Position numbers and translations under genes: made by a program. Below, piece after piece: positions 32,582 through 54,530 of a stretch of DNA of 64,000 nucleotides. Numbering within the stretch: the stretch's first letter is position 1; the number at the start of each line of letters is the position of its first letter. Source of the stretch: Trichaptum fuscoviolaceum. Its lineage: Eukaryota; Basidiomycota; Agaricomycetes; Hymenochaetales; Trichaptaceae. The DNA lies in NCBI GenBank assembly GCA_910574455.1, contig CAJSYZ010000004.1:868001-932000 (forward strand), given 5' to 3'. Under the pieces are notes generated by a model. It did not search any database, had not been told where the DNA came from, and was given only the letters and a program-made list of their open reading frames with translations.

Positions 32582-32593
32582 TGCAAGCTTTAT
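32582..32593. repeat. Left copy of 12-bp target-site duplication
   Basis: TGCAAGCTTTAT directly precedes the left end of the giant element and recurs exactly at 54519-54530, just past the right end. A 9-12-bp duplication fits the MULE superfamily. One or two bases at the junction are ambiguous (11 or 12 bp). Confidence 0.85.
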
Positions 32594-33692
32594 CGAAAAT
32601 AGGAGTCTGCCCTGAACATATTGAGGTCACCCGTTCGGGATTGAGGTCAACCTTTTAAAGTAATCGAAGTCAACCCAAGGAAGTAATCGAAGTCAACCTT
32701 CTTGTTTAGTAGGAAGTAATTGATATCAACCCAAAATAGTATTCCAAGTCAACCTCTTTTTAAATATGCGTCAACCTTTTTCAAAATAGAAGTCAACCAT
32801 TTTCGAATTAGATATCAGCCAGTTTAAAAATAGAGGTCAGCCGTTTTCAAAATGGAAGTCAACATTTCGAAGTTTTCCATATCAACCCGCCAAAGTAAAG
32901 CAAATCAAACTAAAAGTATTTGAATCCAACCGATCCAAGTAATGTAACTCATCCTGTAAGTAATGGGAGCCAGCCCAACAGAGTATCACAAATCAGCCTG
33001 TCAAAAATACAAGTCACCCAGAAAGTATTCAATATCAACCCGTCTGAGTATTGCAAGGCCACCTGCAATAAATATAAGTCAGCCTGAAAGAATTCTAAAA
33101 CAGCCTAAAAGAATTTGAAACCAGCCGAAACATATATTGCAAGTCAGCATTCAAGATATGTAAGTCAGCCTGAAAGTATTTGAAGTCAACCTTGACGAGT
33201 AATGCAAACTACCCCTTCAGAAATACTGGTCAGCCCAAAAGTAATGTAAGTCAACCTTTGAGTATTTCAACACACCCAGAAAGTATTTGTTATCAACCTG
33301 TCTAAGTAATAGTAGTCCGCCTACAAGAAATATAAGTCAACCCAAAAGTATTCGAAGTCAGCCTTGTAAAGTAAACCAAGTCAGCCTGCAAGAATTGCAA
33401 GTCACCCAGAAAGTATTCGGAACCAGCCCAGGCAAGTAATGCAAGTCAACCTGCAAGTATGCGAAGTCACCCTGAAAGTATTCGGAACCAACCGAGGCAA
33501 GTAATGCAAGTCAACCTGCAAGAATTCGAAGTCACCCTGAAAGTATTCGGAACCAACCGAGGCAAGTAATGCAAGTCAACCTGCAAGAATTCGAAGTCAA
33601 CCTTGACAGAACAACTAGGACAGAATATGCTATATCTCCTCAACCACTGATCCGTTTTCTACGAAACTACCACGATTCGAAAGCTCTCTGAA
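32594..33692 (+). repeat. Left terminal inverted repeat of the giant MULE (satellite-like)
   Basis: The terminal 18 nt is followed by about 1 kb of imperfect repeats of a short unit built around AAGTCAACC or GTCACCC with AAGTAATGC, AAGTATTCG and CAAGAATTCG spacers. Near 33440-33600 they resolve into a longer unit of about 65 bp, repeated two to three times almost identically. The last about 70 bp are unique and match the other end inverted (GACAGAATATGCTAT; ACGAAACTACCACGATTCG). Such arrays may be clustered transposase-binding sites. Confidence 0.85.
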
Positions 33693-34043
33693 AGTAGAAT
33701 ATTGTAACGGATACGCAAAACGGCGTTTGGAGAAAATTTCAATTGCGCGTGGATGAAGAGTTGTTGACCACGTATACTGTAATTATTGCGAGGCAGACTT
33801 GCTGCGACTTCATGCAGCCTTATTCTCTCTGTCTGAAATGATACAAACAATGGTATCTGCATTCAACCAAGACATGTACAATCACTTACTCATATGATCG
33901 ACTGCAACGTTTATAGGGACACATCCTAAGTCGAGTACTTTGGCACTGAGCATTTCTGTAAGAAGTGACATTGAGTCTTCTGCTTGCACAAGGAATTAAC
34001 ACAAATCTACTCCAACGCATTAATACATACTATGTATGGTATC

Positions 34044-34400
34044 TCAGAGAACAACCTTTTCGACAGTCGCCCATAATGCTCCTCCGCCGGCGTATGCAAG
34101 CTTCTTGTCAGCATCAATGCGTACGCCATTTAGGTATCGCGATAGGTCAATGACAACACCAGCTTCGACTGATGATGCACCAGAAGCACTATGACCACTA
34201 CCACGAACGGCAAGAGGGATATTTTCGGAAGAGGCTTACTTGATAGCGGTCGCAATGTCTTCGTCATTCTGGAAGGCAACGATCCTTGCCCTCTTGACCG
34301 AGCAGGCTGACCACTGTGATATGGCTTGCTCGTATTCAGGGTGCTCAGGGGTGATGATATCCCCATGAAACTGCTGTTTAAAGGTCTCGAAAGAAGACAT
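34044..34400 (-). pseudogene. N-terminal fragment of an FAD-linked oxidase (BBE-like) gene
   Basis: Minus strand from 34400: MSSFETFKQQFHGDIITPEH, then SVKRARIVAFQNDEDIATAI, a stop (TAA at 34236-34238) where the family has Tyr, then ASSENIPLAVRGSGHSASGA, VVIDLSRYLNGVRIDADKK and LAYAGGGALWATVEK. This matches the first half of an FAD_binding_4 domain (flavin-linked oxidases such as the berberine-bridge group), including the conserved GSGHS loop. Similarity stops at 34044; the rest of the FAD domain and the substrate domain are absent. It is probably host gene sequence caught in the element. Confidence 0.8.
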
Positions 34401-35731
34401 GCTGTCAGACGATAGTGCGGGAAGAAGCTGAGGGAGGCACTGGTCCTTGACGAAGAGGTGTAACAGATCTTGCGACAGCTTAAATAGTTCCAGGCCAAGA
34501 TCCAAAACACAGCAGTCATTCATGACCATTGCCCCGGAAAGCTTGGGTCCGCGATCAAGCTCCAGGGTGGTGATTTCAAACGAGGCGGCGAAAAGTGGAC
34601 TTTCTGAGCCCTTCTAACCCGCTTTTCCCGAATGGCGAGAGCATTGAGGGTAAGAGTAGTTACACGGAACAGCATTGTCAGGCAATCCTACGCAGACATT
34701 TGTGCCACTGGAATGGAAAGAAAGTTGAAGGCATTTGTTGCGCATGCACAAAATTTGCCCAAAGCGAGAAGATGGACGACGGGTTTTGTGTTTGTTTGTT
34801 AAAACTCTGCCGAAAATCATGCTAGGGCATAGGTAACCACTGCAATATTTATACTCATGTTCCACAAGGGCCATAAAAGGATCATTGGTTCGCTCTGCTA
34901 AATATCACTGTTCCTATGGCGATGAAAAGAGGAGGTCGACACATCACAGTTGGAACTAAGTGCATTAAATAGCATAATATTACACATGGTCATAAAGGCG
35001 ACAGGTCTGTCCTACATTCCTCTTATAAAACATCATTTTACAATCACTGAACTGTTATGAAATAGTAACATCAACGTCGTATCATGATAAGAATTATAAA
35101 CATGAGCTACTTAGCTTCATCTGACCTATAGTTGCCACACTCAAAGATGTAGCATGATTGCGGCTTTATAACGGGTTATCATTGACGGACATACATCATG
35201 ATGTGTGTTGGATCACTTACCCTTTTGGAAACGGAGCACTTGAATTAGAGCCACCCTTGATATTGCATCACAACGTGTGTTGGAATAGCTGCCTATCTTG
35301 CATCGGAGCATTAGATGGTCCGAGTAACTGAATCACAGCAGCGTATCTAATGAAAGCTGATAGGGGTGATAGCTTCTAATGAGTTCGCCGCGCACTTGTA
35401 AGCCGTGTATTCACTCACGAATAGACTTCCTTCATCCAAACAGTCACAAGGTCCCTCCCTTCACCCGTCACGAACTCCCATGGTGTCCTGGTATAAGAAC
35501 TGAGCCTGGTACGTTCGTCGGAGTGAAGATGGCACTTACCATAGAGGCCCATAAGGTGGTCGCGGCCAGTGGGGACGGAGATGTGGGTGTAGTCTGCTTG
35601 TTCCATTAAGGTGGTAGCAGACCCTTGAAGTGGACAGGGCATTCCACATACGCACTTGCGAGGCCTCAACCTTAAGAAAAGGGGATGAGTCCTGAGGCAA
35701 GGAATGAACACTGTCCGCAGATGTGTCCGAG

Positions 35732-36108
35732 GTGGCCGCAGCCATGTTGAGGGAAAAGACGCCTTCCGCAGAGGCGTCCGGGTGGCCGCAGCCATGTTGA
35801 GGGGAAAGACGCATTCCGCAGAGGCGTCCGGGAGGCCGCAGCCAGAGGAAGGGGAAGAACACGTTCCGCAGACATGTTCGGTGGCCGCAGCCAGAGGAAG
35901 GGGAAGAACACGTTCCGCAGACATGTTCGGGTGGCCGCAGCCAGAGGAAGGGGAAGAACACGTTCCGCAGACATGTTCGGGTGGCCGCAGCCAGAGGAAG
36001 GGGAAGAACACGTTCCGCAGACATGTTCGGGTGGCCGCAGCCAGAGGAAGGGGAAGAACACGTTCCGCAGACATGTTCGGGTGGCCGCAGCCAGAGGAAG
36101 GGGAAGAG
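35732..36108 (+). repeat. 50-bp minisatellite, about 7-8 copies
   Basis: The unit starts GTGGCCGCAGCCAGAGGAAG and continues to ACGTTCCGCAGACATGTTCG. Copies start near 35732, 35782, 35832, 35881, 35931, 35981, 36031 and 36081. The last five are almost identical; the first three are diverged (CCATGTTGAGGGG variant). The array is open in several frames on both strands, including 239- and 261-codon minus-strand ORFs that extend past it, but those look like products of the repeat. It lies inside the giant MULE between the oxidase fragment and the Cys-rich gene. Confidence 0.85.
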
Positions 36109-36620
36109 CACGAGATAAACATGAGACTCAACACGGGACATTGCGCTTCGCACAGTGTCAGTTGAGTTCATAAGGAAAAGAAGAAGGTGATAAGGAAATG
36201 CCCAACGCGAGGAACAAATGATGAAGAGACATTGAAGGCTGTACATTGCGCTTCGCGCAGTGCATGCTAGTGGCGAGGTGGTGATGAAGGAAAGCTTGAG
36301 TGAAAAACGGAACTTAGGCAAAAATCTCGAACGCCGTGCTTACATAATTCATGCAACGGCGTGGCAATTTTCGCCTACAGTTCAACTTAACTTTTGCTTC
36401 CGTGTCTTCACATCGGACAGCAAATTTGCTTCCGCTATCTCGATCTATTACTTGTTATTGCCATCTCTCACTATTATTGTCATACAGCAGAAGTCTGTAT
36501 CCTTTCCTTCTTCATCTTCATGGACACCTGGATCCGGAGCCTAGCTCGAAGAGCTTGGCGCAAGGATGACCAGTACTGACGTCCATGTCGTTCTTGCCCT
36601 TTCCCTTAGCTTCTCTTCCA

Positions 36621-38615
36621 ATGGCCCCCGCAAGAAGTGGTGGACGGGGTCGCGGAGGTCGTGGAGGTGGCAATGGGGCTAAGAGGGGTGGAGGAACACG
36701 ATCGTCAGTGGGTGGGGATGCACCACGAAGGCCATGTAAGCTATCGTATCTTGTGTCGGCATATTTTTGTCCCACTTACCCTCTGTGCTTACAGTGATTA
36801 CTGGACATGTACCACGAAGGTCATGTGAGCTACCGTATTTTGTGTCGGCTTATTTTCGTCCCATTTACCTTCTGTGCTTACAGTGATTACTGGAGGAAAG
36901 GCGCCTGCAATGCTGATTACGCCTTCCGATGACATAGGTGTGTGTATCATATAACTCTTATCTTCGTCCTCTCATCTGATTGTCTCTTGAAGAAATATCC
37001 ACTGGAAGCGATGGCGGCCATGTGGCGCAAAACTCCGCACCATTCCATCCACTACCTCCCAAGCCCGAACTCAATATGGAGAGGCAAAGCACGCTGGATC
37101 CGGCAGCTATGGAGATTGACTTCGGTATGGATAGCGGACAGGTGAGCGAATGTTTCACAGGGTACAAGACGTTTCGGCTTATGTCAATTCTACTTTTCTT
37201 TTATTAACGAAGACAGAGATGATGTGAGTATTGGTTGACATATTCCAAGCACTTATTAACCTCCTGTCTGTAGCATTGCTGCTGGTGTCACGATGGCGGT
37301 GAACTCTATCCCTGTACCAAAAACAGTTGCCCACTCGCCATGTGTTCCGACTGTGTTATGGTCGAGGAGACGAAAAAGCAGAACTTCAGCTGTCCCTCGT
37401 GCTGGAACAAACATGTGAACACGGTGTATACGCCCGGTAACGCGCCATGCAAATATCCAGTGGGTTCTGCAAATTCAGTATAAAGATGTCTTGTTGATCA
37501 ATTTCCGTAGTGGGAAATTCGCCGTCCCTGCTCCGTTCGTGATTACAGATCAGGAGTGAACACTTCTCCTTTACTCATCATTAATCTCTCACTATCTTCT
37601 GTGGAGCATCTCGAAATGGGCAGAATCTTCTATCACATATTGAAGTCTTCGTATCAACAGAAATCAGAAGATGTGAGTTTTTCCGTTTGTGTTGCAACCG
37701 ACTCGTCTTTATTTTGATTGATAGCTGCGCTATGTGCATATTACTTTTGACAATGAAAACACCGATCTGGAGGAAAAACGGGAAAAGGTGCTGTCGGAAG
37801 TCGATTCCGACATCAGTTACCGTCGCTTCAAGAGGGTTCTCGTCTTCATCAACTCTCACACAAACCCGGAAGGGCTGATTTACCACACCGTCCATGGTGC
37901 CACTGACTTTGATGAAGTAAGCAGCATGATCCCATTCGTGAATGGCCCTTCCTAACGTTTTTCAGTTCTTCAATTGGCTGATTTTACACGACCTTGAGAA
38001 CTTTCTGTTCGAGCGTGAGACCACGTTGGTGTTAAACTGTTGTGGGTCTTATGTTAAGAGTCCCCACCAGATGTCAAACATACACGATCTGACTGCACGG
38101 TGAGGGCCTAACTATCTAAGTTATATTCTTACCTCTAACCTTCCTTCAATTCCAGCGGTATTGTGAAGAATATCATGTCTTTTGTTGCGGAAAAGTTTCA
38201 ACCGAGCCTCGCCACGCATCTTGTGACGGAGACTCTCTATGAGATTTTTATGTCCCGTAAATCTTTCGTCCATGCGTTGGAGAAGCATCTTGCTGGTAGT
38301 GATGTTGGGAGTCACGCTCACATCAACCTCTTCAGTGTCGATGGCTGGCGCACGTACATATGGGGTTCTGGAACCAGTCGTCCTTATGGCACCCTTCCGG
38401 ACATTTCTTGCATCAAATGTGGATTGATTCTGCCATGGCGTAAGGATTTTGATGGAAAGAGTTCAAAGAACTCTTCAGGCACAGTGAATCTTCGATGCCG
38501 GCTATGCAAGTATCGGTACGGAACAGTGGTATGTCCTTCAGGACTCCAACCCATACATGAAAAGTCGGCGCAGAAGTGGTATTATCGTGTTATACCCAGG
38601 ACTGGCACACCGTGA
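36621..38615 (+). CDS. Cys-rich PHD/ADD-like zinc-binding protein of the transposon
   Basis: Function unknown; the fold suggests DNA or chromatin binding. Start is ATG 36621 (ATG 36585 is an alternative). The N-terminus is Arg/Gly-rich (GGRGRGGRGGGNGAKRGGG). Two tiny exons separated by duplicated introns follow, then PSDDIEISTGSDGG. After introns, a Cys cluster HCCWCHDGGELYPCTKN...CPLAMCSDCV...FSCPSCW (37274-37410) has PHD/ADD-like spacing. The middle runs LRYVHITFDNENTDLEEKRE, VLVFINSHTNPEGLIYHTVH and FFNWLILHDLENFLFE. Near the C-terminus CIKCG...LRCRLCKYR looks like a second zinc site. TGA 38613. All introns have GT..AG ends and no stop remains, so it appears intact. Proteins with a CWWC-DGG start are common in Agaricomycetes, but I know no assigned role. 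It lies within the giant MULE, upstream of and co-directional with the transposase gene. Confidence 0.78.
36722..36893 (+). repeat. 89-bp tandem duplication including an intron
   Basis: ACCACGAAGG at 36722 and 36811 start two copies of an about 89-bp unit. Each contains a donor (GTAAGC or GTGAGC), a complete intron and the acceptor TTACAG followed by TGATTACTGG. The result is two consecutive introns (36736-36794 and 36825-36883) around a 30-nt exon that keeps the reading frame. The copies differ at several sites, so the duplication is not brand new. Confidence 0.85.
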
Positions 38616-38960
38616 ATCACCTTCCTTGATGTCGCGGCACAATGGAGCTTCTGGTCTCTCGTTCGTCTTACTCGTCAGTTTCGTTTCCCCGTTATTCATC
38701 GTTTCGGTCTGTTCTGCACTTTCATGTTATGGTGACTTCCGTATGACAGTGTTTGTATCAAAAGAAATGTGTGAATACGTTCCTTAAAAAAAGTGGTATC
38801 TTCATCATTTAGGACACCACTCTACCCCAGTGTCATCTACGTTTTGAATAGTTATGTATGTACATAGAGTCTGCCGATGAAAAATGACTACCATCTTCGT
38901 TTTCTTTCTCTATTTAGAGTGCTAAATATCCTCATTCGTATATTGACCAAGTACGTGTTC

Positions 38961-38970
38961 TATATAAATA
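38961..38970 (+). promoter_or_regulatory. Possible TATA box for the 39137 gene
   Basis: TATATAAATA lies about 175 bp upstream of the ATG at 39137, in the gap after the Cys-rich gene. Position and sequence fit a TATA element, but no other core-promoter evidence is visible. Confidence 0.3.
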
Positions 38971-39136
38971 ACATTTACTGATTATCACCCACGAGGCGAG
39001 CTGGGTATAGACTAAATTCGGTTGCGAAGAGGGGTAAAAGTGGTCCGATTTCTTATCTGCTACAGTACGTGGGCACTTCTCCTATCCTCAACCACATCCT
39101 GACTTCCAACCCCTTTCTAGGCTTTACTCGCATTCA

Positions 39137-41934
39137 ATGGAAAGTGGGTCCCTTTGTCTATTGATGGCGACCGGCGTTTTGCTAATTGATTTGAGCATTA
39201 CTTCAGGTTCTTCGACACCGCCATCCGTTATGGTGGCGAAAGAGAAGTACATACTTGAAAGACGACACGTCATGAGGATCGACGGCGATCTAGTTATAGC
39301 CTACAACACAGATCGTCCGTTTCCATCGCAAGTCGATCCTTATTCTACACCTAGGCTTCGCCATCTGCATCTTCCCGCTTACGAATCTAAGGAATTCCCG
39401 TATCTATGTGCTGCCCCAGCAGTGCCTGACTACTCTGGGGCCATCCTTGGGCGCCTATCTCAAACCATCGAGCAATACCCTCTTGTTCAGACTGGTAGTC
39501 GTTACTCTCTGGACCCGACTGTTGCATCCCGTTGGCAGTCCCTGGAGCGAGCATTGAAGGGAGTAGCTCTTTGCCTGTTGGAACATTCAGGGGAACCCCT
39601 TGTTCCTCTGGAGTACAAATTTCCCCCTCCCCCGTACCTTCAAGGGTATTTGGACTCATACAGTTCGAGTAACGCTGCTCGGACGGCTATCCAACGTTCA
39701 AGGGATGCGTTCCAGGCTCTGATCGCTCATGCGTCCTGGGCTGCAATTCTTCACAGACTCCTGACGTTCTGGTCACTCTATACACCTGGGGTGGATCTCG
39801 ACGTAATGCTGGACAAGTCCTGGGTGGAAACGTTGCAATACAAGTGCAAAATCCATCCTGCATGGTTGTGGGAGCTTCGCATGTCCGCCATATGTGATTT
39901 TCGAATTCGAAGAGCCGGATTAGTGCTGAGAAAGCCGAATGATTGGTACTATAGTTCAAAATTACTTGCCCTCATTGTCTCCAATGTCCCAGTCTGGATC
40001 ATATGGGGAAAAGGACCTTACGATACCTGCCCTTCCACCTGGACCCTCGATTTGGCTAAAACCTTCGGGCCTTCTCAGAAGGAGTCAAGCGAAGCGCAAG
40101 TCTGGATTACACCGAAACCGGCTACGCCACCAAAACCGGCCACTACGCTACCGCCTGCAGTGACTACGGATCAGTCTTGCGCGAACACTTCCAAACAAGT
40201 CCGATTCGCGGAGACGACAAAGGACTCGACTACATGTATTCACGAAGACGTGCACGCATGGATAAAGAAGAAAGAAGTCCTAATTGCTGAGGCACTAGCG
40301 AATGCGGATCAACTCAAACGTACGAAGTGGATGCAACGTCAGGAAGCCGCAAAGTCTTTTCAGTGTCCTGGAACACGCGGTGCCTTCGTATACGAATGGG
40401 ACAGAGATGAGAATCAACGACCTGTTCGCGCTCGTGTGAATCGAGCGAACGTAGAACAGGCTTGGAGCATGTTCGCAGACACACAGCGATGGTATAATTG
40501 TGTGTCGAGAATGTATGGGAATTGTGTCACGAACTTGACCCGTCCGCCATTACATTCGATGTTGAAGACGATTTCGACGTTACCACCTCGGAATACGAAA
40601 TGCATGATGAGGACGTTTTAGGAGGTTGGCTGAGCGGTTCTGCAATTGACGCAGAGACTGCTGAGCTGGACCTGATGACTAACTCGTTCAAACCAGAGGA
40701 CCTTGCGGGTCAAAAAAGGCGAGACAGCGGAGGGGTCGTGTTAGAAGCCTTCGACCTTATAAGCCTTCGATTCGGGTACGCGTGCGTCAACGGTTCAAAG
40801 TATGAGTCAATGGAGAAGCCGCCGATAAAGCTGCAAAAGGCTCTTCGGGTTATAGGCGACGGGTTCGATACCCCTGTGTACACAATGTTAGACGGCGCGG
40901 AAGCAAGCTTCATCCAGTACGTCATGTACTTAGATGCCGTGGGTCATCCAAACATCGACATCGATCAGGTTCCGAGTGCCCTATGCGACTTGTATCCGGA
41001 AAATCCATCTTTCCTGGGTAACCAAACTTCAACGGTTGTAGTCCACCAGGCCGTCCATATGGAGACAACTTTATACATTATACGTCATCGGAATGAAGAC
41101 ATTGGGAATGATTGGGTTCTGGCGGTGAAAGACCCCTGCACTGCTGCACAATGCATACGCTCAAGGCCATTGTCATTGATGGAGATCATCCGAGACCTCA
41201 TCGACACGAAAACGGCGTTCTATACCCTTCGACCCCTGCCAGACTCCACTTGCGACTCTAAAGGGCGATCACTACGGAAATCTGAGGTATTCACTGGAAA
41301 TCGGATTGGGTTGGGCGTTAGGCCAATAGGACATGTCCTTGACCTGACAGACTACATTGCCTATGAGTCTGTCAAAATGAAGCTCTTACAGGACAAGAGA
41401 ATCGCTCGTGCCGTGGTGAAACGGGGCGGTATAATATCCAGATTGGCGGAAGGATTGGTGGACGAATACGATGTGATTAGCGGTCCTACGTGGAATGCAG
41501 ACGGGAAATGCATTCGTGTATCTATAATGCTCGATGGTCAAAAACGCGAGTACTTCGACGACGATGTCAGTCTTGAGGAATTGGCAACGTTTGTTGGATT
41601 ATACAGCTTCAAAGGTAAGAACTTCTACGTCTTGCGATCACAAATATGGAGTACTTGACAAATGTTTGCAGTCCCGAAAGTCGTCGCACCGACAGAACAG
41701 TCGTGGTGGCCAACGTTCAATAAGTTTGAAGAAAGTGGTTTAAACCTTGGCATCTGGACGCCGCGTTGCGAGCAGTGGTTCCTTTCCAGAACGAACGAAA
41801 TCATGGAGAAGGGATGCGGTCCATTATCCTCTTCGAAATGGAGAGATGCGATGAGATGTGAGATGGAGACAAAGAGGGTTTACAAAGCTGCACGGAGTCT
41901 GGCTGCTCGATTTATCACCGATCATTGCGCTTGA
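39137..41934 (+). CDS. Agaricomycete family protein of unknown function, with one frameshift
   Basis: A large protein of about 900 residues resembling a family common in Agaricomycetes. Exon 1 (39137-40500) includes LHLPAYESKEFPYLCAAPAV, SRWQSLERALKGVALCLLEH, RIRRAGLVLRKPNDWYYSSK and VSNVPVWIIWGKGPYDTCPS, a Pro-rich linker (TPKPATPPKPATT) and WDRDENQRPVRARVNRANVE. Near 40500 the frame must change between TQRWYNC and VENVWELCHELDPSAI. The sequence there is TGTGTGTC; removing one GT restores continuity, so a 2-nt slippage is likely. The second part (to 41614) has SGPTWNADGKCIRVSIML. A final exon after an intron (41615-41671) reads APTEQSWWPTFNKFEESGLN and WTPRCEQWFLSRTNEIMEKG. No catalytic motif recognised. 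It lies inside the giant MULE. If the shift is real the product is truncated; a sequencing error is possible. Confidence 0.7.
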
Positions 41935-42799
41935 GACTTTCATATCTGTATTACATTAATAGCTCCCATTGCGTCTTTGCGATCACGGTGTTCGTTACAT
42001 TATTGCCATTCGATCACGCGTCCCCGATTCGTATGGGATTGATGTCCAAACGTTAAAAGTTAATCGTAGTCTGTGAGGATCCACGACCAGTGACAGCGTC
42101 GATCTCAATTTTTAGAATTGGATATGGCATTGCAACCACTTAACAGGTTCGAGTGTGAACACGGATATGAGTCTTTACGGGTCGATTGATGTTGCGGTGA
42201 ACGGAAAGACCAGACGATGTGTATAATATGGTGAGTAGATCTCATTCGACCCTGGGTCTCCGGATAGATGTGATATTCAAAGCTGATTTCGGACTTTACG
42301 GTAATAGGCGACATGTAATTCAAATGGAGTTGTCTTATTCCCTTTAAAGCAATTTGATCCGCGTGTACGCCATATACATGTGTCATAGATCTAGATAGAT
42401 ATTTCTGCCCTGATCTGCTTGAAGCTAATTAATCTTTCTTTCAACTTTCTGATTGAATTACTGTCTTTCATTCGAGTAGGACACCTTTCTGTAGTTTTCT
42501 TGCCGAAGCACTGACATGGATGTAGAATATCGTTACGGGATGTGAGTCAACGCGTGTTATACGATCGAGCACGTTTACTATACAATAGTTATATGATACA
42601 CAGATTGTCTATATACATGTACATTACTTACAGTAGAATACAGATCGTTAGCAGATACCGACAAGATCGGATCTCTTTTTGGATGTGATATAATTACATA
42701 TGGACAAAGCATGAATTTTTGCATGAATGGTAAAAATGGAGAATATTATAATGACAATGAAGCAGATGAAGCAAAATATGAGGGAGATATCAGAGACGA

Positions 42800-42841
42800 C
42801 GCTGCGACGACGACGACGATGACGATGACGATGACGATGGT
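42800..42841. repeat. GAC/GATGAC trinucleotide-hexanucleotide repeat
   Basis: A run of GACGACGAC then GATGACGATGACGATGACGA, just past the 3' end of a small minus-strand gene. A simple low-complexity tract with no other feature. Confidence 0.7.
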
Positions 42842-42848
42842 GAAAGAC

Positions 42849-43458
42849 TCACACTACCCTGATGATAGGATTGCCTTCTTCGCGGAAGGCTAGTTCGTCC
42901 GCGTCGGCAAAGACACGCAGAGGTACGCCTGGCTGATCAGGCATCACCATCGTAGTGGCCAGCATAGAATCCAGCTAACATAGTCAAGGTAAGTTCATTA
43001 TCATTCGCGATACTGTTTGAGTGCTCACCCAGCTGTTTGCATCAGGGATATGAAAAGTCCCAAGATACCCCTCCTCTACGTAGACCCGACCGGTCAAGTG
43101 ACGGTCTCGTTTGTGAAACGATTGTCTAGCCATATGAGTGAGTTAATGTCACGGTTGTTAATGTGTTAAGTACTTACACGACGGCAATTGACGTGGGCAT
43201 CACGTCGTATAACACCCCCAAGTTCATCCCCACATCGGCCACTAACTTCTCCACCTTCGCCCGTACATCCTTGTTCTTCTTATTGCCTAGCAGATTGTCA
43301 ACGAAGACAATCTCGAACGGACACACGCGTGCGTCGTAACCGAGAAGGCTGGCGAAACGGGTAGAGGTGAACATGGTGAAGATGAAGGGCGTAAGTGAAG
43401 GGATAGAGGCGAAAGATGAAGACAAGTCAATGAGGGCGTGAAGGACGTGGACAGCCAT
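42849..43458 (-). CDS. Small three-exon protein of the transposon, function unknown
   Basis: About 170 residues. Start ATG 43458 (MAVHVLHALIDLSSSFASI). Exon 1 ends at 43178 with a GTAAGT donor. Exon 2 (about 43135-43040) gives QSFHKRDRHLTGRVYVEEGY and LGTFHIPDANSW. Exon 3 (about 42979-42849) gives MLATTMVMPDQPGVPLRVFA and DELAFREEGNPIIRVV, TGA 42849. Three exons joining in phase with canonical ends is good evidence for a real gene. I see no zinc motif, no signal peptide and no known domain; exon 1 has a mildly hydrophobic stretch (IPSLTPFIFTMF). It is transcribed away from the transposase gene across about 540 bp, which may be a divergent promoter. It is probably part of the MULE's own gene set. 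Confidence 0.65.
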
Positions 43459-44000: not shown

Positions 44001-47000
44001 ATGCAAGACATCAAGTACACGCACAAAAACGCCACATATTCAGACACGGAGGCCTCGCAGAAGTCGTCGGATAACGAAGGTCAGCCGCCGAAGGTGATAG
44101 AATGCTCATCTCCATCCTTCGGCATTTAAGACTAATGCATCTGTAAAAGAAACCGAGGATAGACAATAAAGATGCGCATGATCCATCGAAAGAGACAGAG
44201 GTATGTCATCTCTACGCAAGCAGTTTAATCGTGTCGGAAGCTAAATGGCATTTTTGAAGGAGCCAAGCAGTCCAACGGTACAGGCTAGTGCAAGAAAAGC
44301 TCAGAAGTATGTTAAGATAAAGGAGACCGTAAGGAGACATGTTCAAACTGACGTCCTGAATCACGTATTGACATCCTGAAATGAATGTTAGCCTCAACAG
44401 CGAAAGGAAAATGCGATACGGAATGCGAAGAGGACACCAGGGCCTAAAGGAGATCCTATGGCAGGCTTCAGACCCGCTACTCAGCCTTCACCACATCCAC
44501 ACCGCCCCACCAAAAATGTGCCAAAATATTATTTATCTCCCAGACGTTCGGTAAAGATTAAGGCGGGTGGGATGGGTGTCTTCGGGTTGTTGAATGTAGA
44601 CCTCAGTCACACTCCAAAGAAGGTGTCTGGAGTACCTGAGATTCACTACTATGCCGATGATGGTTGGCGATACATTGGGCATCATACAACTAATTATCTC
44701 TTCCGCTTCTTCGATAATCAGGTAGGGATTCATTCATCGCATGGATAACGCGAATCCATCTTCAGGACTAATCCACTCTCAACAGAAGAACGATTACACC
44801 CCTCATACGTATCAGGTGGACAACAATGCAGTGGATGTTTCTTTCGTGGGTCATCCTATGGACAGACCGAAAGACATCCGTGCGAGATCCTTTTTCGTTC
44901 AGCGACGAGGAGAGGATCCGGTGGATCCGAAGGACGATCGTGTAGTCTTCAGAGTCGTCCTGCGCTGCGCGAAGAATTGTACTCCTGCCGAGGATGACTA
45001 TGAATGCACAATAGGTAAAGGGGTTTCCACCGACGAAGAGGACGAAGAAGAGCATATGGATGAAGAAGACCAGTTGTTACCTAGGGAAAGGAACAAAAGA
45101 CAGCGGCCGAGGAGAAAGTGCAATGTCAAGATGCATGTAAGTCCTAGTCCTTCAGCCACTGGACCGCTAACTCAAAACCAAAAAAAGGTGGAGATTAATG
45201 CGGACGATCTTGGTCACGCTCACATATTCATGCAGCACACCCATGGCCACGTGAAAGACTTACGCGATCTTAGGCCGTCTCATTACATTCGACAAGGTAT
45301 AAAAGAATTAGTGACACTTCACGGACACACGACCTCACAAATTAAGAAAGGTTAGTGATGTACTGGTATTGGGAATACATCTGACTTCAAGCTGTTTCCT
45401 ATCATAGTGATTCCCAAATTATACATGCATGCCCTCACACCCCGATATCGACAGCACACAGCAAAGGAAGTTGAATATATTGTTCAACAATGCCGCAGAG
45501 CAGAACGAATGGATAATGACCCCTTGAGGAGCATTGGAGTATTTGCCGAAGCCAACCCGGACTCAGTATTTGCGTACGTGCAGCATGTGATTATGTTTTA
45601 AGCCACGCCTTACCGTTAACTAGATATGAGAATGAAACTGAAAGCGGGGATGGCCAATTTCGGACCGGTCTGAAGGACAAATTTTCGACGCAATCGCTTA
45701 TATTGAATGCGCGCAAGCGCGGATGTGGACTTGACTCGAGCTATAGACACAAGAACGAGAACAGAGCTCCCGTGACACTCTTGACGACTTTAAACAAGCA
45801 AAAACACATGGTACCAGGTACGGGATCCGGGTAGTCCATAATAATACAATAACTGACATACTATTGGAGGCACCGTATACTTGTCCAGTGATATTCGGAC
45901 GGATACCGTTGAAAAGTTCTTGAGGGAGACATGTGAAGTCGTGAAAGCAGAAGCCGAGGCTTTGTGCAATGGTAAGTAATATGACCTCAATCTTGTCGTC
46001 TCTTCTCTCAAAGTCTGCCATCGTTTTCAGGCACAAGTACAGTACACGAAGGACACCTTGGCTCGAAGACGGAGCTGCTGGAAGAGGCTGCACGTATCGT
46101 GAAGGATAATGAATTCAAGCCGAAGTTCATCATGATTGATAAATCGAAAGCAAATAGAGATGGTATATTGAGAGGTAAGCCACAAGTCTCAGTCACTTAT
46201 TAGCAAAATAATGACCTTTGCTTCATTAGTATGGCCGGACATGACCATTCGCATCTGTCAATTCCATGTCATTCAGGTAAGTGCAAGTACATGACGGAAT
46301 TGTCTGTAGATCATGACATCGTCGCAGGCAATTCTACGCTGGGATAGAGATGAAGGAACTGATCGACAAACGCGGCCAACTCTGAATAAGTATCGCAAAA
46401 ATATGATGTTCTGGGCTCTGAGAGAGCTACAGCGATGCGCACACATGTCGGACTGGAATACGAAGAAGACTGAGTTCGCAGACCGAATTAGACGCATTAT
46501 GGATGGCGGAACAAGCCTGCAATCGGACGTTATGGCGTATTTTGAAGCAAACTGGTTCACGAAGGAATGGCTAAGTGAGTAGAGCAGTAATTTCTAAGTG
46601 CGAAACGCTGATCAGTAACATATCAAAAAGATTATTGGACGGACATGGGCTTACCACCAGGTACATATCGCGATGACGGCCTTTCGACTAACAATTATAT
46701 AGAGCGAGCCTTCAAGACATTTGACCAGGTCTTCCTACGCAGTAGGGCTAACAAGTCGTAAGTGGTTAACTAAAAAGTCGTCAAATGTTACTGATCCTGT
46801 GTGAATAGTATATATCGTCTGGTGCTGATATTTGTTAATGATTGGTTCCCCTATTACGCCCACTGGGAACCGAAAGGCAAGTCAACGGATAGAGCACAGG
46901 AAGAAGTGAGGGCACTCGGCTATCGTATTTGGAGCATTCCTGGAGCTGTAACTCGAGATGAAGAGACAGGCGATTATATTGTGATTGCTAGTCCTTAGGA

Positions 47001-50000
47001 AAGGTTGAAGAAGTTTTGGATGCATATATTATACTTAATTAACAAAAAATCGGATGTATATGCTGCTTGACTAACTATGTGAATTAATATGAACGTCGTA
47101 AGTCAACAAATGTGACCAGTTGTCGAGAAACAGGGAGCCGAACGGTGGTCGGATTATGCCGGAAGCAAATTTTTCGTAGTAAACAAGTTAGAGAACTTAA
47201 GTGCTAAGGACACTGGAGAAAATTGTTCTGTGTGCAACACCTTTGACTTCCCTAACATGTCTTTAGATGAAGAGGAAAGACGCCAGGCACTCAGGCTGAA
47301 GCTTGAACATGAAAAGCACGTATGCCCCTGCGCGAGATTCACACAGACGGGAAAAAGATGTGAGCATATATATGCGAAGGATTGTCTAGAAAAATACGGT
47401 CCTGTGGAGAGTTACCTTAGTAAGTCGTCGTATATCCGTACTAGTGGCGTACATACTGATTAGATTTGTCGCATTAGAAGCTGAAACGGCGAGACCGAAA
47501 CGCAGGCAGCAACGCGATGCTTATGTTGTGCCAGAGAACGAAAACGAGTCGGATGACGTACAATCATCGGAAGACTCGGAAGGGAAGAAAGGGAAGAAAA
47601 GGAAGAAAGGGAAGAAAGGGAAGACGATAATCGGAACAGAGAATATGAGGTGGAAAGGCCAACCCCCGAAAGATTCGAACATAGACAAGGACACTGAAAG
47701 CATTGAGGCATTCTTGATGGAAAAGACTGGGCCATTTCCTACGATACTGGGACCGGAGGAGAGAAAAAAGCTTAAGGATAAAGAGACGGAAGTCGAGAGT
47801 GAGGATAATGATGACACTGGGAGAGACGTAGACATCTCTCAGGTAGATCATTTCAAGGCACTTGTCGAACCCAAAGGTAAGCTGGAATGTAGTTGTGCAG
47901 TGTTACACCTATTCATGGATTGATATGTTACAGGCGGAACGAACCTGAAAGGTGTGGAGGATCCAGACCGGGCAGGCAAGGAAGGAGAGGTTGATTCAGA
48001 TCGCCAGAAGGAAGCCAGAGAGGATGAAAATGGATTCCAGAGAGGTATGTCGCAGATGATCCATATAAGGCACGCTTTCGTTGACTGACGCGGGTGATAT
48101 GTAGTGAAACCGAGTGCCGGACGACCTGCAGCGACTACTCCCTTGCACAACCGAAAGAAAGCCAGCGACAAAGATCTCTTAGACGATGTGGACTGTGGAA
48201 ATTCGAAGAAACCTATGCACTCCAAGAAGCGAAAAGGAAAGGATAAAGTCGTCTTCAATCAGAAGCCCGGACCTCGACCCAAACCAAAGGGTAGTCTACT
48301 ACCGGCAATGAACCCCGAGGATAGGAAAGAAGCAAAGAAGCTCATTGCAGAGTTTGCCAAAGTCAAGCAAGACAGTGACAAAAGAGAGGTACGAAGGGCA
48401 AAATGCCGTGTTGTGTTCATGTGTCAATTAACTAACATCTTTCTGTTTAGACATTGGAGACAATCAACAACGATGTCGTCGTCACACAGGGAGCATTCGA
48501 CAATGAGGATTTGGCCATATCACAAGGCCGGTACCGGGAATTATGGTCCAACCCAAATTACTTAATGCGCGAAGACGAATTAGACCACTGTTTACATCCT
48601 ATACTTCACGCCCTGTCGAGAACATGCCAACTTCGTACAATTTTTGTTCCCCATAACCACTCATCATTTGCCACGCAGATCGACGCGGCGGATTGGTCGG
48701 TGGTAAATGACGAATTTCCGATAAAGCCCGATGGTTCGGTGAGTACAAAGACGTTGTTGGGTATGGATATCTCAAGCTGATGTTCTATACAGGATGCATT
48801 CCCTCGAGATGGTGCTCTGGCTCATTGTTGGAACCTTAGTACAGCCCAGACCCTCGAGAAGGCGGTCGTTTTTCATCACGATCAGCAACGCACCCATTGG
48901 ATTATCTACTTTCACGACTATAGGAAACAGCAATTCAAGGCATTCGATTCAATGAATGTCGCCAACCGCACCAACGCACGTGGACCAAAGCTCATCACTA
49001 GTTTCTTCCACACTGTCAATGGTGCGCGACTGGAAAAGGTAAGTAGTCAATAGTCAATAAATGATCAGTAATTGCTCATGATTCACCTCACCCTGTTAAT
49101 TAGCCTTTGGATGGACCTCTGATGAACTACCCATATGTGCCATTGGGTGTACAAGTTGATGGTAGTTCCTGCGGGTTCTGGGCAGCCACGATTGCCCTGC
49201 TGTTAGCGTTCTCCATCAATGTGGAAGCGAATTCCGTGAAGAGAAAACTGGTCGAGTTAGGACCTACTGGCATCAAGGAATTCTGGATCTCTGCCGCATC
49301 GTCCTTCCGTTCCAGTAAGACAGAAGGCCTAGATCGACAAACTTTAGAGGCGTTCCTGTCTCAGTTCAAGGGGAAAGGCATGAAGAATGAATGGTCAAAT
49401 AAGCTAGGTGCAAAAGAATGCGTAAGTGAAATCATTGAGACATTGGATTGTTCTCATTTCATGCATGTTAGGTTGCTATTCGGCCCGATTATATAGATTG
49501 CATCCAGTCCAAAGAGGATATGGATCCTTCAATGCATCCTAATGATACTCGCCTCGAAGGTAAGCACTGACATGGATCCATAATATAGTTAATGATCTGA
49601 TCTAACCGTGTTCCATCAGATCTTCATTCAGATCATGCGACAGCTATGCCTGAAGATGGACAAGAAGATGATAAGACAGGAACCGGTCAGAATAAGCAAG
49701 ATGGAGTGGATCTTAATGTTCAACCAGTAGCGATGGAGATAGACGAAGAACAGGACAAAGACAAAGACAACGTTGCAGATGCAGATGAAGGCGAAGGAGA
49801 CGAAGGCGAAGGCGAAGGAGATGAAGGCGAGGGAGACGAAGGCGAAGGCGAAGGAGATGACGAAATTGGAACTGCTCCTAACAATGTCGATCGGAATGGT
49901 TCACCACTAGCTACAGACGATGTTGCTACGCCAAGTCTTCCGGAAGTTCCTGCCGCAGGGGTTGTTGCTCAAAATGGAGAGTCTTCGGTGCCAGACGCGA

Positions 50001-51185
50001 TGGATGTCGATGACATACCCAGTAGTGGGGCGAGTGAGTTAACTCCTGTCCCAGAGGAATCAGCAATGTGTTCGAGTGATGACCGCGCAACTCCTGTCCA
50101 AGACGAAGAGGATAAAACGTTACAGGAGGTGATAATGTCGTTGCAATGGACCATGGTATCTGCACGCCAGGAGAGGACTTTATTAAAGGCTGAGGTGAGT
50201 GCTTCCTGCCCTTTAATGTCCAGGATCACGAGCTAATGGATATACAGTACAAGCAGGACCTGGAATTGTTCCGCAAAGGACATAGTCTGGAAGCTGGGAT
50301 GGCGGTGATAGAGAGAGAGCATCTGGAGCGCCTCCAGCCACCCAGTTGGTTTGACGACAATCTAGTAAATGCAGTGGTTCACGCAATTCAAAAATCGTAC
50401 GTGGACCAACACCTTGGCACTGCATTTGTGATTAACCTCCATCTTGTAGGACGAAGCGCCCCAAGGATGTTTTTATTGCACATACCTTCTTTCTCAACTC
50501 TATCAAAGGGAAGGCTGATCAACGACTTAAGAAGGATCCTCTGCTAATGGTGAGTTGCACTTTAATATGAAGAGACTTATGAACTGTGTACATTTGACAA
50601 ATCGATAGATTTCATTATCTGACATGTCATCTCTCGTTCTCCCAATGCATGTCAATAATGACCACTGGATTGTCGCTTGTATCGTTTTCGAAAAAACAAC
50701 TATTGAGGTTTACGATAGTCTTTCATCAGCAAAAGCGTCTGACAAGACATACTCCACGTATCTTAACGTGGGTGGCACATATTCCATTGCATTACACACT
50801 GAATGAAAGACTTCCCGGTTCTATAGCAAATTATTTCCTGGTTGGAACGCAAGTCGAGAGAAGAAAAGCAGAAGTTTGTACGCTCAAAATGGAAAACGAA
50901 GATGCAAGACAATGTAAGCTGAAACTCTACCCTACGCAACTATCCCATGCTAACGAGGCAATCAAGGTTCCTCGTCAGACAAACGGACATGATTGCGGTG
51001 CATTCTCGTGCATATTCATGATTTGCTTGGTGTTTTTCGGGTCTCTGCAGGCTCAACCAAGCAAAAGTCTCATCAAGCTCATTGAGGCCGACTCAGAAAG
51101 TGTACGCTTGGGTTTACTTTTCCGGATAATCCAGAAGGCAGGGTCTATGGTGAGTATTGCAAAGAGAGGAAGGAAAAGATACTAG
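44001..51185 (+). CDS. MULE transposase fused to SWIM zinc finger and two Ulp1/C48 protease domains
   Basis: Spliced by eye from about 27 exons to roughly 1,870 residues. ATG 44001 opens MQDIKYTHKNATYSD and a basic PPKKPRIDNK (possible NLS). The DDE core follows: first Asp in GCGLDSSYRHKNENRAPVT (about residue 440), GTVYLSSDIRTDTVEKFL, second Asp in KFIMIDKSKANRDGILRVWP, the CxxH motif RICQFHVIQAILRW, and Glu in LSTNNYIERAFKTFDQ (about residue 670). A SWIM finger VCPCARFTQTGKRCEHIYA follows (47320-47380), then Lys/Glu-rich linkers. Ulp1 domain 1: HWIIYFHDYRKQQFKAFDSM with VDGSSCGFWAATIALLL. An acidic Glu/Gly/Asp linker follows. Ulp1 domain 2: HWIVACIVFEKTTIEVYDSL with RQTNGHDCGAFSCIFM. Both have the His, Asp and Cys expected of C48 peptidases. 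The weakest join is 46993-47119: a TAG at 46996 is removed only by a GTCCTT donor, so two genes remain possible. Confidence 0.82.
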
Positions 51186-51397
51186 TAGCCGACACTCCTA
51201 ATGATCTACTTGTATCCGTAATTCATTGTGATGAGTGCTTAAGTCTAATTTCATTCCTTTTCACTCAGTCCTTGGAGGAAGTGTTCATTTTTCACATATG
51301 ATACAATGTAAAAGGTGAGAGTTTCTGTAGGGAATGTGAGGGTATACTATTTACACAATTTAAAAAGGTCTGAGTGGAATAGTCCATCTACTACCCA

Positions 51398-51849
51398 CTA
51401 ACGGGGGTGATCAATCTTTGCCAAAAACTCCGCACAGACACTTGCAAGCTTCTCCGCCTCCCTCTTGGCCTCCCATTCCCTCTCCTCCTGCCCATCCGTC
51501 GTGACTTCCCGTACCGCAATGACGGTGTACTCGGCAATGACTACCTCGAGTACCATTGTTATGCTGGCCAATCGCTCAGCAACGACGTGAGGATTGCGCG
51601 GTCGTTCTATCAAGATATTAGACTCCAATTATGTGTTTATGGACGGAGAAGACATACCCTCAACGAGCATCTTCCCGGCCCAATCCTCTGGGAAACGAGC
51701 TCGAAAAAGCGCGACCACGCGGTCGAGCAGTCTCGCAAAAAGCCTGTAAGTGTATGCAATATTTACGAATCAGAATCTTTCTAATGAAAATCAGTGGTTG
51801 TACGTAGCACGTACCGTCTCAATCTGCAGGGAAGTTTGCCGTAACGCAT
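51398..51849 (-). CDS. Small helical protein of the transposon, function unknown
   Basis: About 115-120 residues in three exons. ATG 51849 gives MRYGKLPCRLRR; a GTACGT..ACAG intron then joins LFARLLDRVVALFRARFPED. A second intron (GTATGTC..GATAG) joins ERPRNPHVVAERLASITMVL and the helical, charged tail EEREWEAKREAEKLASVC to TAG 51398. All joins are in phase. The protein is rich in Arg, Glu and Ala and likely helical; the N-terminus is basic. No known domain. It is convergent with the transposase gene (213 bp between stops), within the giant MULE. Confidence 0.6.
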
Positions 51850-53252
51850 GGTGAGACGACAATTGGGGATGGGGAAAGAGAGGTGAAAACAGCAGGCCGT
51901 AAATTGCCGACGGAGACGGAAGCAAATGATGCTACTCGGCTCCGGTAAGCAAGCTTCCGTACATCCGATGATCACGTGGTGCGTGCGAACTGAAAAGATA
52001 ATACTATACAGCATATGACCCTTGTGGGATGCTTACGTTTGCGTATTACATGTAGCGGCTTACTCAGTTCACGAGCTTGATTTGTCTAAGTCATCTAATG
52101 GACTTTAAAAAAAAAAACTTCTACAACGCAGTATGTGGTATTCATTTCTATCTGCATGTTCCAGTGGCTTACATATATTGGACCTAGGTAACCTATCTGA
52201 TGGACAATGGTATAACCTGGTAACTGCATTCAATTCTTATATTTCCTTTCATGATATTCATGTCAAGATGACCATGGCAGATTTCTATTCAGATACGGAG
52301 CTTCCTTTGTTCCTTGTGAAATACCTGATGACAGATGTCATTGGAAGGACTTCGAAGAACTACCACGACTCGTGACAAGCGGGAGCTCGTGTACTTCACG
52401 CGTGAAACTGCGTCGCATTTCTTCACCATCGACCACAACAACAAAGACGACTCCGCGCCTCAAGACAGCGGCGACGCACAATGAAGACGCGAATATTCAT
52501 AAGAACGCAAGATGAAGACCCATTTATCAATGCCTAGCGGACGCTACCCGCTCCAACAAAGCCATTCGGACGAGGCCTTATTCGCGCCACCCAACTTACT
52601 GCTCGAGGCCTTGCGGACGCTACCAAGCAGAGCCACCTGCTATATCAAAGCTCATTGGTGTGTAACAGAAGTAAGGTGAGTATTGCAATTGAATGTCTAT
52701 TTACATGGGTGACACTATGTATGGAGACCTTCGGTCGGTTTAGTTTTCCTTGTGGGTTTGTCAAGGTTTCTCCTTGTCAGAGGCTGCGTCTCCCTTCGGT
52801 CATGGGCTTGACTCGTTGGTCCCTCGGCAACCCAAGACGCTCTAGAGCAAGGACCTTTTCAGCGAGCTCCAGGGTGGCTTCTCCCACAATAACCTGCCAG
52901 CCCAATTTTCCACTCTTGCATCCTTCGAGGAAGCCTTTCTCTTTAGATTATCGACGACGGACAGGAGCGAGCGGGAGCGCAGGAACACCTTCTCAGGCTG
53001 TCGTGCCTATGGTGTGACACCTACGTGGTATTCTGGGTAAGGCTGGATGAAGGCAAGTCAACTGTGTTCTCGCTGGTCGAGGCTCGCAACGACAAAACTG
53101 GACATTTGTCATCTTTTACCTGTCCAAGGCTCTTAGAGACTTTGGGAACTACACATCTATAAATTATCTAGTGTTATATGTTCGTCTCACTCACCATTGA
53201 AATCAAGATATTCTTCTTCCAATGGTTTCCGGGCCTCCCTTCTCAAAGCAAA
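51850..53252. other. Transposon interior, no gene called
   Basis: About 1.4 kb between the small helical gene and the helicase fragment. An 80-codon ORF (52133-52375) and scattered open segments near 52380-52500 and 52650-53020 look like diverged coding DNA, but no family motif could be recognised and frames break often. Confidence 0.35.
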
Positions 53253-53435
53253 TTAAGGCCTTGTTCTGGTCCTCGCGCAGTTCGGCAAGAGGAAGCAAAT
53301 AATTTCATTGATTTCACCGATAACCAGACCTTCATTGCCTATAGAAGTAGAGACCATGAGATTAAATTCGCCTGCCTTGCATTTCTGAATTGCCCGAACG
53401 AGATGATCAGCACCTGAGAGTACCAAAGACTTCAA
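53253..53435 (-). pseudogene. Fragment of a FANCM/MPH1-like DEAH helicase (C-terminal helicase domain)
   Basis: Minus strand: AIQKCKAGEFNLMVSTSIGN followed by EGLVIGEINEIICF. This matches the stretch where FANCM/MPH1 helicases have K.[26 protein letters not shown] (motifs IV-V). The Asp of EGLDIG is Val here and the QR.GR.GR motif VI does not follow, so only about 45 recognisable codons remain. It sits just inside the right end of the giant MULE and is probably captured host sequence or the remains of an old insertion. Confidence 0.6.
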
Positions 53436-53610
53436 TACAAACCAATATCAAGACCTTGCTTTCACCTTCTATTGGTTCCCCTCTCATGATTGCAGCAGCA
53501 GCGGACAGTGACTGTATAAGAGGGCTATAAGACACAGAAATGACAAAAATCAAATCTACCAAATGACTGATTCACCTTGCTCAATTTGCAAGAGCTGTGT
53601 CAAATCTCCT

Positions 53611-54518
53611 TTAAATAAGCTTTCGATTCGTGGTAGTTTCGTACTGAACGGACCAGTAATTGGAGAGTTATAGCATATTCTGTCTTGGCTGTTCTGGTAA
53701 GGTTGACTTCGAATACTTTCAGGGTAACTTATATTTCTTGTAGGTTGAGTTACATTACTTGCCTGGGCTGACTTCGAATACCATCTGGGTGGCTTGCTAT
53801 ACTTTCAGGTTGACTTGCATTACTTTTCGAGGCTGACTTCAAATACTTTCTGGGTGACTTCGCATACTTGCAGGTTGCCTTGCATTACTTTGGTGGGCGG
53901 ACTTCGAATACTTTCTGGGTGACTTGAAATTATTGCAGGCTGACTTGCATTACTTTTCGAGGCTAACTTCGAATACTTTTGGGTTGCCTTATATTTCATG
54001 CAGGTTGACTTGGATTACTTTACAAGGCTGGTTTCAATTACTTTCATGGTGTCTTATATTACTTTGCAGGCTGACTTGCATTACTTTTCGAGGCTAACTT
54101 CGAATACTTTTGGGTTGCCTTATATTTCATGCAGGTTGACTTGGATTACTTTACGAGGCTGGTTTCAATTACTTTCATGGTGTCTTATATTACTTTGCTT
54201 GGTTGTCTTCCATTTCTTTTAGGCCATCCTATATTTCTTCCCGAGGTTGATGTCGAATACATACCCCGGTTGACTTGCATATTATGAAAGGCTGACTTAC
54301 AATTCTAATTAAGTTGATTCCGAATTCTGACAAATGTTGACTTCCATTTCAAAATAGGCTGATTCCGAAATCTTACAAATGATGACTTCGAATTCTGAAA
54401 TTGTTGACTTACATTTCAGAAAGGTTGAAATACATTAAATACAGGTTGTCTTCATTTCTCACGGTTGACCCCATTTATGGTGGGTTGACTTCATTACATT
54501 TAGGGCAGACTCCCATTT
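53611..54518 (-). repeat. Right terminal inverted repeat of the giant MULE (satellite-like)
   Basis: Reverse complement of the left end: the unique inner part (53618-53642, and ATAGCATATTCTGTC at 53670-53684) and then about 0.8 kb of repeats with GGTTGACTT or GGCTGACTT plus GCATTACTT and GAATACTTT. An about 120-bp unit is duplicated almost exactly around 53925-54190. The terminal AGGGCAGACTCCCATTTT is at 54502-54519. The array is shorter and arranged differently from the left one, so the two ends have evolved by separate expansions. Confidence 0.85.
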
Positions 54519-54530
54519 TGCAAGCTTTAT
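54519..54530. repeat. Right copy of 12-bp target-site duplication
   Basis: TGCAAGCTTTAT, identical to 32582-32593, immediately after the right inverted end. Confidence 0.85.

Follow-up and report, generated by a model that had tools for sequence, protein, structure and literature searches.

The 64-kb window analysed here, by which we mean the whole stretch C4:868001-932000 of a Trichaptum fuscoviolaceum genome assembled into 12 contigs (written C1, C2 and so on) totalling 59.09 Mb, contains a giant Mutator-like element (MULE). Between long composite ends the element carries a transposase, a part coding for a SWIM-like finger and an Ulp1 protease, and two adjacent genes, termed A and B. It is very probably one of a family of six giant cut-and-paste MULEs that are autonomous, or were so until very recently. 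A preliminary description of the window had proposed a complete 21.9-kb MULE with satellite-rich inverted ends of ~1 kb, and the copies, the ends and the transposase described below support that proposal.

Boundaries and copies

The element and its outer features are as follows, in window positions:

32594-54521, 21,928 bp: giant MULE, bounded by comparison of six copies
32585..32593, no strand: left target site duplication, 9 bp, AAGCTTTAT, from the six-copy comparison
32594..33690, plus strand: left composite terminal inverted repeat, 1,097 bp, with terminus CGAAAATAGGAGTCTGCCCT, an array of AAGTCAACC-like motifs and an inner stretch of ~100 bp
53611..54521, minus strand: right composite terminal inverted repeat, 911 bp, with terminus GCAAAATGGGAGTCTGCCCT, the motif array inverted and the common inner stretch
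54522..54530, no strand: right target site duplication, 9 bp, AAGCTTTAT, from the six-copy comparison

A perfect 9-bp duplication flanks all six copies and differs in sequence from one copy to the next (AAGCTTTAT at the window copy; ATTTTTAAT, AACTTTTCT, ATCATAAAT, TTGCATATT and ATTAGTAAT at the others). The target sites are AT-rich in every case, and each copy starts with CGAAAA and ends with TTTTGC. A 12-bp duplication had been proposed from the window alone, and the 12-mer TGCAAGCTTTAT does occur in the 64 kb at 32582 and 54519 only; its length, however, must be corrected to 9 bp, a usual length for MULEs, because the six-copy comparison assigns the T, G and C at 54519-54521 to the element as its own last three bases. 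The TGC at 32582-32584, which matches the element end, is a coincidence of this insertion site. The inverted match of AAAATAGGAGTCTGCCCT and AAAATGGGAGTCTGCCCT directly inside the duplications was seen again, as were the inverted matches of the satellite blocks and of the inner stretch, which is ~100 bp long.

Both ends have the same order of parts: a short terminus, an array of AAGTCAACC/AAGTCAGCC-like motifs and the conserved inner stretch of ~100 bp. The pattern RTCARCC occurs 25 times in the 1,097 bp of the left end and 14 times in the 911 bp of the right end, always facing inward (39 inward and 0 outward for both ends). Elsewhere it is found 2 and 7 times on the two strands of the 19.9-kb interior, and 15 and 9 times in 42 kb of flanking DNA. 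The spacing of the motifs is concentrated at 21-23 bp, or about two helical turns, and multiples thereof. Judged by sequence, the terminal arrays look like arrays of protein-binding sites.

The 18-nt terminus, with up to two mismatches allowed, was found 12 times in the 59.1 Mb of the genome, always as a member of one of six pairs, and a reversed control pattern gave no match. With this terminus pattern, neither solo ends nor short derivatives, including any resembling miniature inverted-repeat transposable elements (MITEs), were seen genome-wide. The lack of any second copy, or ends that differ between copies, had been set beforehand as refuting the proposal; six full-length copies were found, and their ends coincide. 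Besides the window copy, they are C5a (22,126 bp), C5b (22,129 bp), C5c (21,812 bp), the C12 copy (21,905 bp) and the C1 copy (C1:1054933-1085356; 30,424 bp), the last being longer because of two additional blocks, 4.2 and 4.5 kb in size.

Three of the copies are nearly identical: when the window copy is aligned with C5a, the main block of 20,883 columns shows 9 mismatches and 9 gap openings, and with C5b the main block of 20,885 columns shows 8 mismatches and 10 gap openings. The corresponding blocks contain 208 mismatches in 21,948 columns for C5c and 336 in 22,006 columns for the C12 copy. The right-hand 1.3 kb of the window copy is just 97% identical to C5a and C5b, and the left 3.6 kb of the C1 copy is 89.6% identical to the window copy, which suggests that the element ends evolve faster or recombine. 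C5a and C5b have in common a tandem duplication of ~240 bp near the right end (C5:1664993-1665931 and C5:1768128-1769065), so that one probably derives from the other, or both from a recent common parent. One flank of C5b contains a GH28 polygalacturonase-like exon (PF00295, 1e-17), and the other reads, by eye only, as the preceding exon and intron. The six copies with paired termini and different perfect 9-bp duplications, three of them near-identical, indicate a real and recently active DNA transposon.

Transposase and the SWIM-Ulp1 part

The genes that relate the element to known transposons lie in its right half:

44458..46998, plus strand: MULE transposase, 10-exon hand-made model of 681 aa, introns of 50-64 bp with GT-AG borders, ending at a TAG (46996-46998)
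47110..51149, plus strand: SWIM-like finger followed by an Ulp1 (C48) cysteine protease, 14-exon model at 47120-51149, introns of 44-65 bp with GT-AG borders

The transposase scores 29.8 bits against the PF10551 cut-off of 27.6 in a 779-aa version read through the TAG, the match lying within the 681-aa part. It has the catalytic-type residues D369, D467 and E601 and a CxxH motif (C488-H491). D369 and E601 are invariant in all 12 aligned sequences and C488 and H491 nearly so; D467, in the motif MIDK, is absent from some predicted homologues. A search in which the best 7,989 candidates were scored gave 11 homologues, from Mycena, Flammula, Dendrothele, Tilletia and Neolentinus. The AlphaFold model of one of them, P0018 (40% identity), has a mean predicted local distance difference test score (pLDDT) of 64 overall and above 90 in parts of the core. 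It matches the ISCth4 transposase at E 3.7e-6, and the five chains that match it at E <=0.001 are all ISCth4, a member of the IS256 group, the bacterial kin of Mutator. The element is assigned to the MULEs because the Pfam cut-off is passed, the D-D-E and CxxH residues are kept and the homologue models onto ISCth4. Two protein queries of the genome with the transposase returned only the six copies among the matches listed, these counts being lower bounds. A profile search with PF10551 matched seven loci of other MULE families and missed the six copies, in which introns split the domain. In viral contigs, 116 stretches fitted a pattern for relatives of the transposase and none was confirmed.

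The 14-exon chain downstream reads through in one frame and contains an Ulp1/C48 domain (PF02902, 6.8e-18; match to SENP1, 1.1e-14). Two Ulp1 domains are not put forward as a firm claim: the first of them (~48793-49200) is a motif read by eye, with no Pfam match. The chain may prolong the transposase gene or stand as a gene of its own. An in-frame TAG follows the transposase core in all six copies, so that the SWIM-Ulp1 part may be separate, and several homologous models that end near the TAG position also favour two genes. The Tilletia homologue P0025, which has a MULE match and a below-cut-off Ulp1 match in one protein, favours a transposase-Ulp1 fusion in at least one relative. The C12 and C1 copies have an in-frame ATG shortly before the SWIM part. 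Between the C12 and window copies, nonsynonymous and synonymous changes number 6:5 in the transposase (ratio of their rates, dN/dS, 0.33) and 27:25 in the SWIM-Ulp1 part (0.29).

Cargo genes, shared modules and captured DNA

The left half and the extreme right of the interior contain the remaining features:

35701..36112, no strand: tandem repeat of ~50 bp upstream of gene A, which recurs at non-MULE gene A loci and at loci of Kyakuja-Dileera-Zisupton (KDZ) transposons
36621..38615, plus strand: gene A, 9-exon hand-made model of 481 aa, with a Cys/His-rich PHD-like finger seen by eye
39230..41934, plus strand: gene B, orphan family P0001-P0016, frame-shifted in the window copy
34055..34818, minus strand: captured host fragment of a FAD-binding oxidase, frame broken, recognised by identity to C7 and by PF01565
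52340..52987, no strand: nested high-copy repeat with 164 genome matches, present in all six MULE copies and in many other places

Gene A has no Pfam match, and the search for its homologues, among proteins 0.55-1.75 times its length, returned P0028 and P0029 only, the former readable from this genome's own C5 locus. The gene B family comprises 16 proteins from a set of 5.8 billion, none of them named and one with the domain PF28437. That domain was not matched by the copy of Pfam used, in which genes A and B match no family. The fold of gene B, taken from the model of P0001 (mean pLDDT 64), gave no match in PDB at E 0.001. Nonsynonymous and synonymous changes in gene B number 5:6 between C5b and the C12 copy and 5:5 between C5b and the C1 copy.

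Outside the MULE, 112 rows for gene A and 39 for gene B were grouped into 15 gene A and 19 gene B loci. At seven of the 15, gene B follows gene A downstream on the same strand, at a distance of 0.5-0.6 kb in six cases and 5.8 kb in one; the remaining eight have no gene B within 7 kb. One of the seven belongs to a block of at least 14.67 kb that carries both genes together with the 50-bp repeat and is 99.66% identical between C5:5191500-5206165 and C4:4345565-4360231. Neither MULE termini nor a MULE transposase were found in this block, which indicates that the A-B cassette exists without this MULE. The left end of the block lies beyond the analysed DNA, and on the right the C5 copy enters a retrotransposon-like insertion (Gypsy-like by eye); in those of its frames that were run against Pfam, nothing matched below E 0.05. 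Relatives of genes A and B are also seen near contig ends, in possibly subtelomeric positions (C12:10143-12155, C12:40688-41866, C3:26944-28147, C1:5419-6763 and C2:69692-71038).

The 50-bp repeat was placed at 26 non-MULE loci from 48 rows, after omission of the MULE copies, second pieces, non-covering rows and edge-touching rows on C3, the last of which lie upstream of gene A loci on that contig. At five of these loci gene A follows downstream, on the same strand and no more than 1.3 kb away. A KDZ transposase (PF18758) lies 5.8-8.5 kb downstream on the same strand at 11 (for example C7:5326435, C11:2021526 and C12:738909), and neither is found at the other 10. The distance from the repeat to the KDZ transposase is nearly fixed, being 6.0-6.1 kb in seven cases, and the control arrangements gave one pairing upstream and one on the opposite strand. 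These counts use 61 of the 115 PF18758 rows, second pieces and some weak rows being omitted, and the 11 loci are not independent, since the KDZ copies look like one family. The repeat upstream of KDZ is the strongest sign here of an exchange of modules between transposon superfamilies, and the MULE looks as if it had been assembled from modules common to other mobile DNA.

The preliminary description had read the interior as a gene set of the element's own plus captured host DNA. The gene set was found, together with at least one captured fragment, which matches C7:1724686-1725457 at 86% identity and part of which matches C7:1728046-1728620 at 81%; a 60-aa piece on its minus strand matches FAD_binding_4 (PF01565) at 1.2e-11. 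The nested high-copy repeat, part of whose 164 matches are listed, was aboard before the family spread, since each of the six copies contains it. Just left of the element, at window positions 29958-30698 on the minus strand, lies a weak match, below the cut-off, to the POT/PTR2 peptide transporters (PF00854).

Mechanism, alternatives and precedents

The proposed mechanism starts from the observed ends, duplications, copy number and transposase domain and residues, and from exons that were modelled by hand. The DDE transposase would bind the inward-facing arrays of motifs spaced at 21-23 bp and the termini of 18-20 nt, excise the element and insert it elsewhere, cutting AT-rich targets with a stagger of 9 bp. 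Accessory functions, either action against host silencing or regulation of transposition, would be the most likely roles of the SWIM/Ulp1 protein and the A-B cassette. The 50-bp tandem repeat and genes A and B would have been acquired as a module, one that is also found outside this MULE.

Several observations weigh against a family that still moves by itself with the cargo as modelled. Frame-changing indels interrupt the transposase or SWIM-Ulp1 exons in five of the six copies, and the sixth, the window copy, is the source of the model itself. The TAG after the transposase core is common to all six, and in four copies (the window copy, C5a, C5b and C5c) the ATG that precedes the SWIM part runs straight into a stop. 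The SWIM match, at E 0.084, is below the cut-off, comes from one exon and is not reported for longer models, the CxC...CxH arrangement being read by eye. Gene B is uninterrupted in C5b and the C12 and C1 copies only; its changes between the last two are 10:3 nonsynonymous to synonymous, and those of gene A between the C12 and window copies are 6:1 (dN/dS 1.76, from tiny numbers). No gene A lies within 10 kb downstream at any of the 11 KDZ repeat loci, so the repeat and the cassette are not always together. A genome search with the joined flanks of C5b, the one site of the six that was searched in this way, returned just its own two flanks and no empty site.

The stop and the indels could mean that the six copies are no longer self-mobile, but are left over from a very recent burst, as relics or as non-autonomous copies, with their transposase broken. 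In that event the family would be dead, as no further transposase copy is among the matches listed from the two protein queries. We consider this rather unlikely. The TAG sits after a complete D-D-E core, near the ends of several homologous gene models, and nothing interrupts the frame in the transposase exons of the window copy, although this is the copy from which the model was made. Gap openings are moreover about as frequent as mismatches between near-identical copies (9 and 9, 10 and 8), which suggests that some of the indels are assembly errors. Spread of the 22-kb block by segmental duplication or recombination, instead of by transposition, would be in keeping with the two copies that share a contig, separated by ~100 kb and oppositely oriented, and with the patchy identity exemplified by the left end of the C1 copy. 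The six copies nevertheless have the same base-exact boundaries although their flanks differ, and a separate 9-bp duplication surrounds each of them. Segmental duplication does not produce this pattern, and we reject this explanation as extremely improbable.

The alternatives that concern the nature of the element and of its cargo can be weighed in the same way. Ulp1 domains occur in several transposon groups, and the 50-bp repeat is common to this element and to KDZ loci in the same genome, where it also lies upstream of the transposase; the element might thus be a KDZ, Plavaka or other fungal giant element. This is highly improbable: the transposase is above the MULE cut-off, its homologue models onto ISCth4, and PF18758 has no match in the six copies among the matches listed (Plavaka was not searched for). 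The duplications are 9 bp long, against 8 bp in Zisupton (PMC12730594). A KDZ transposase is rejected on the last two grounds. Genes A and B, for their part, might be hitch-hikers captured from host gene families, with no role in transposition. MULEs capture host fragments, this one included, and both gene A and gene B are also found at loci that lack the MULE, some of them near contig ends. We regard this as somewhat unlikely, since A and B are full genes that stand adjacent and in the same order at seven non-MULE loci, five of them with the shared repeat within 1.3 kb upstream, and since the 14.67-kb block on two contigs suggests that the cassette may move in another vehicle too.

To return to an autonomous or very recently autonomous MULE family, its parts can be compared with those of known systems. 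The element resembles MULEs such as MuDR, Hop, Mutyl and Phantom in its PF10551 DDE transposase, CxxH motif, 9-bp duplication and terminal inverted repeats, which are often long in MULEs; the SWIM-like finger, whose match is below the cut-off, may be a further resemblance. It differs in its 21.9 kb, its at least three multi-exon genes, its composite ends of ~1 kb and its genes A and B, which have no Pfam family. MULEs are usually a few kb long. The groups tabulated in PMC6446971 have duplications of 8-11 bp where given, one group having none, with one or two open reading frames and terminal inverted repeats of at most 640 bp. Rehavkus, in the same source, has a 9-bp duplication, a minisatellite near one end and a PHD finger; its finger, however, is in the transposase and its minisatellite stands before the 3' terminal inverted repeat (PMC6446971), whereas here arrays occur at both ends and the PHD-like finger, seen by eye, is in a separate gene. 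Foldback and Tm1-type Mutator elements also combine composite terminal inverted repeats, here with inward-facing motif arrays of 21-23 bp, with a 9-bp duplication, but the present element is multi-gene and fungal, and no MITE-like or short derivatives with its terminus were found. Like Pack-MULEs, it contains a captured and broken host gene fragment; unlike them, it has its own transposase, and it is about three times the 7-kb upper limit quoted for rice Pack-MULEs (PMC6431247).

The nearest functional parallel, by analogy, would be the anti-silencing VANDAL/KIU elements of Arabidopsis, which are likewise multi-gene MULEs with Ulp1 and with short motifs in noncoding tandem arrays (PMC5735166, PMC13317346). 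In these, methylation is removed by VANC, whose binding sites are short motifs that have built up in tandem repeats (PMC5735166), and some VANC genes carry Ulp1 (PMC13317346). Here, by contrast, Ulp1 belongs to the SWIM-like protein behind the transposase, and the arrays are terminal. By this analogy, the most plausible role of the cargo would be in regulation or in an escape from silencing. A more specific proposal, which we hold to be unlikely and put forward tentatively, is that of a fungal counterpart of VANDAL anti-silencing, in which gene A, gene B and/or SWIM-Ulp1 would recognise the arrays and strip silencing marks or SUMO-dependent repression. In the same proposal the repeat-A-B module would pass between superfamilies (the MULE, the A-B vehicle and, for the repeat, KDZ).

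No giant, multi-gene or Ulp1-bearing fungal MULE was found in the open-access literature searched; a transposable element library of Marasmius oreades is reported to include elements of up to ~42 kb, of a kind not stated (PMC9674265). The preliminary description had spoken of an undescribed system. This applies to the size, the combination and the modules common to other loci, but not to the superfamily, the composite ends, the Ulp1 cargo or the fragment capture, which have precedents in print. The novelty is thus partial: each part has a precedent, and what is new is their combination in a 22-kb multi-gene fungal element with a cassette and a repeat common to other loci.

The six full-length copies of ~22 kb, one of them 30 kb and three near-identical, show that in fungi such a cut-and-paste element can have several full genes aboard. 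With their exact ends, exact duplications and small number, they are a clean substrate for experiments on the use that giant elements make of their cargo. The fungal superfamilies with exchanged TET/JBP genes include KDZ (PMC12730594). If it is true that the cassette and the repeat pass between superfamilies, the TET/JBP exchange in fungal transposons would extend to other genes (PMC12730594).

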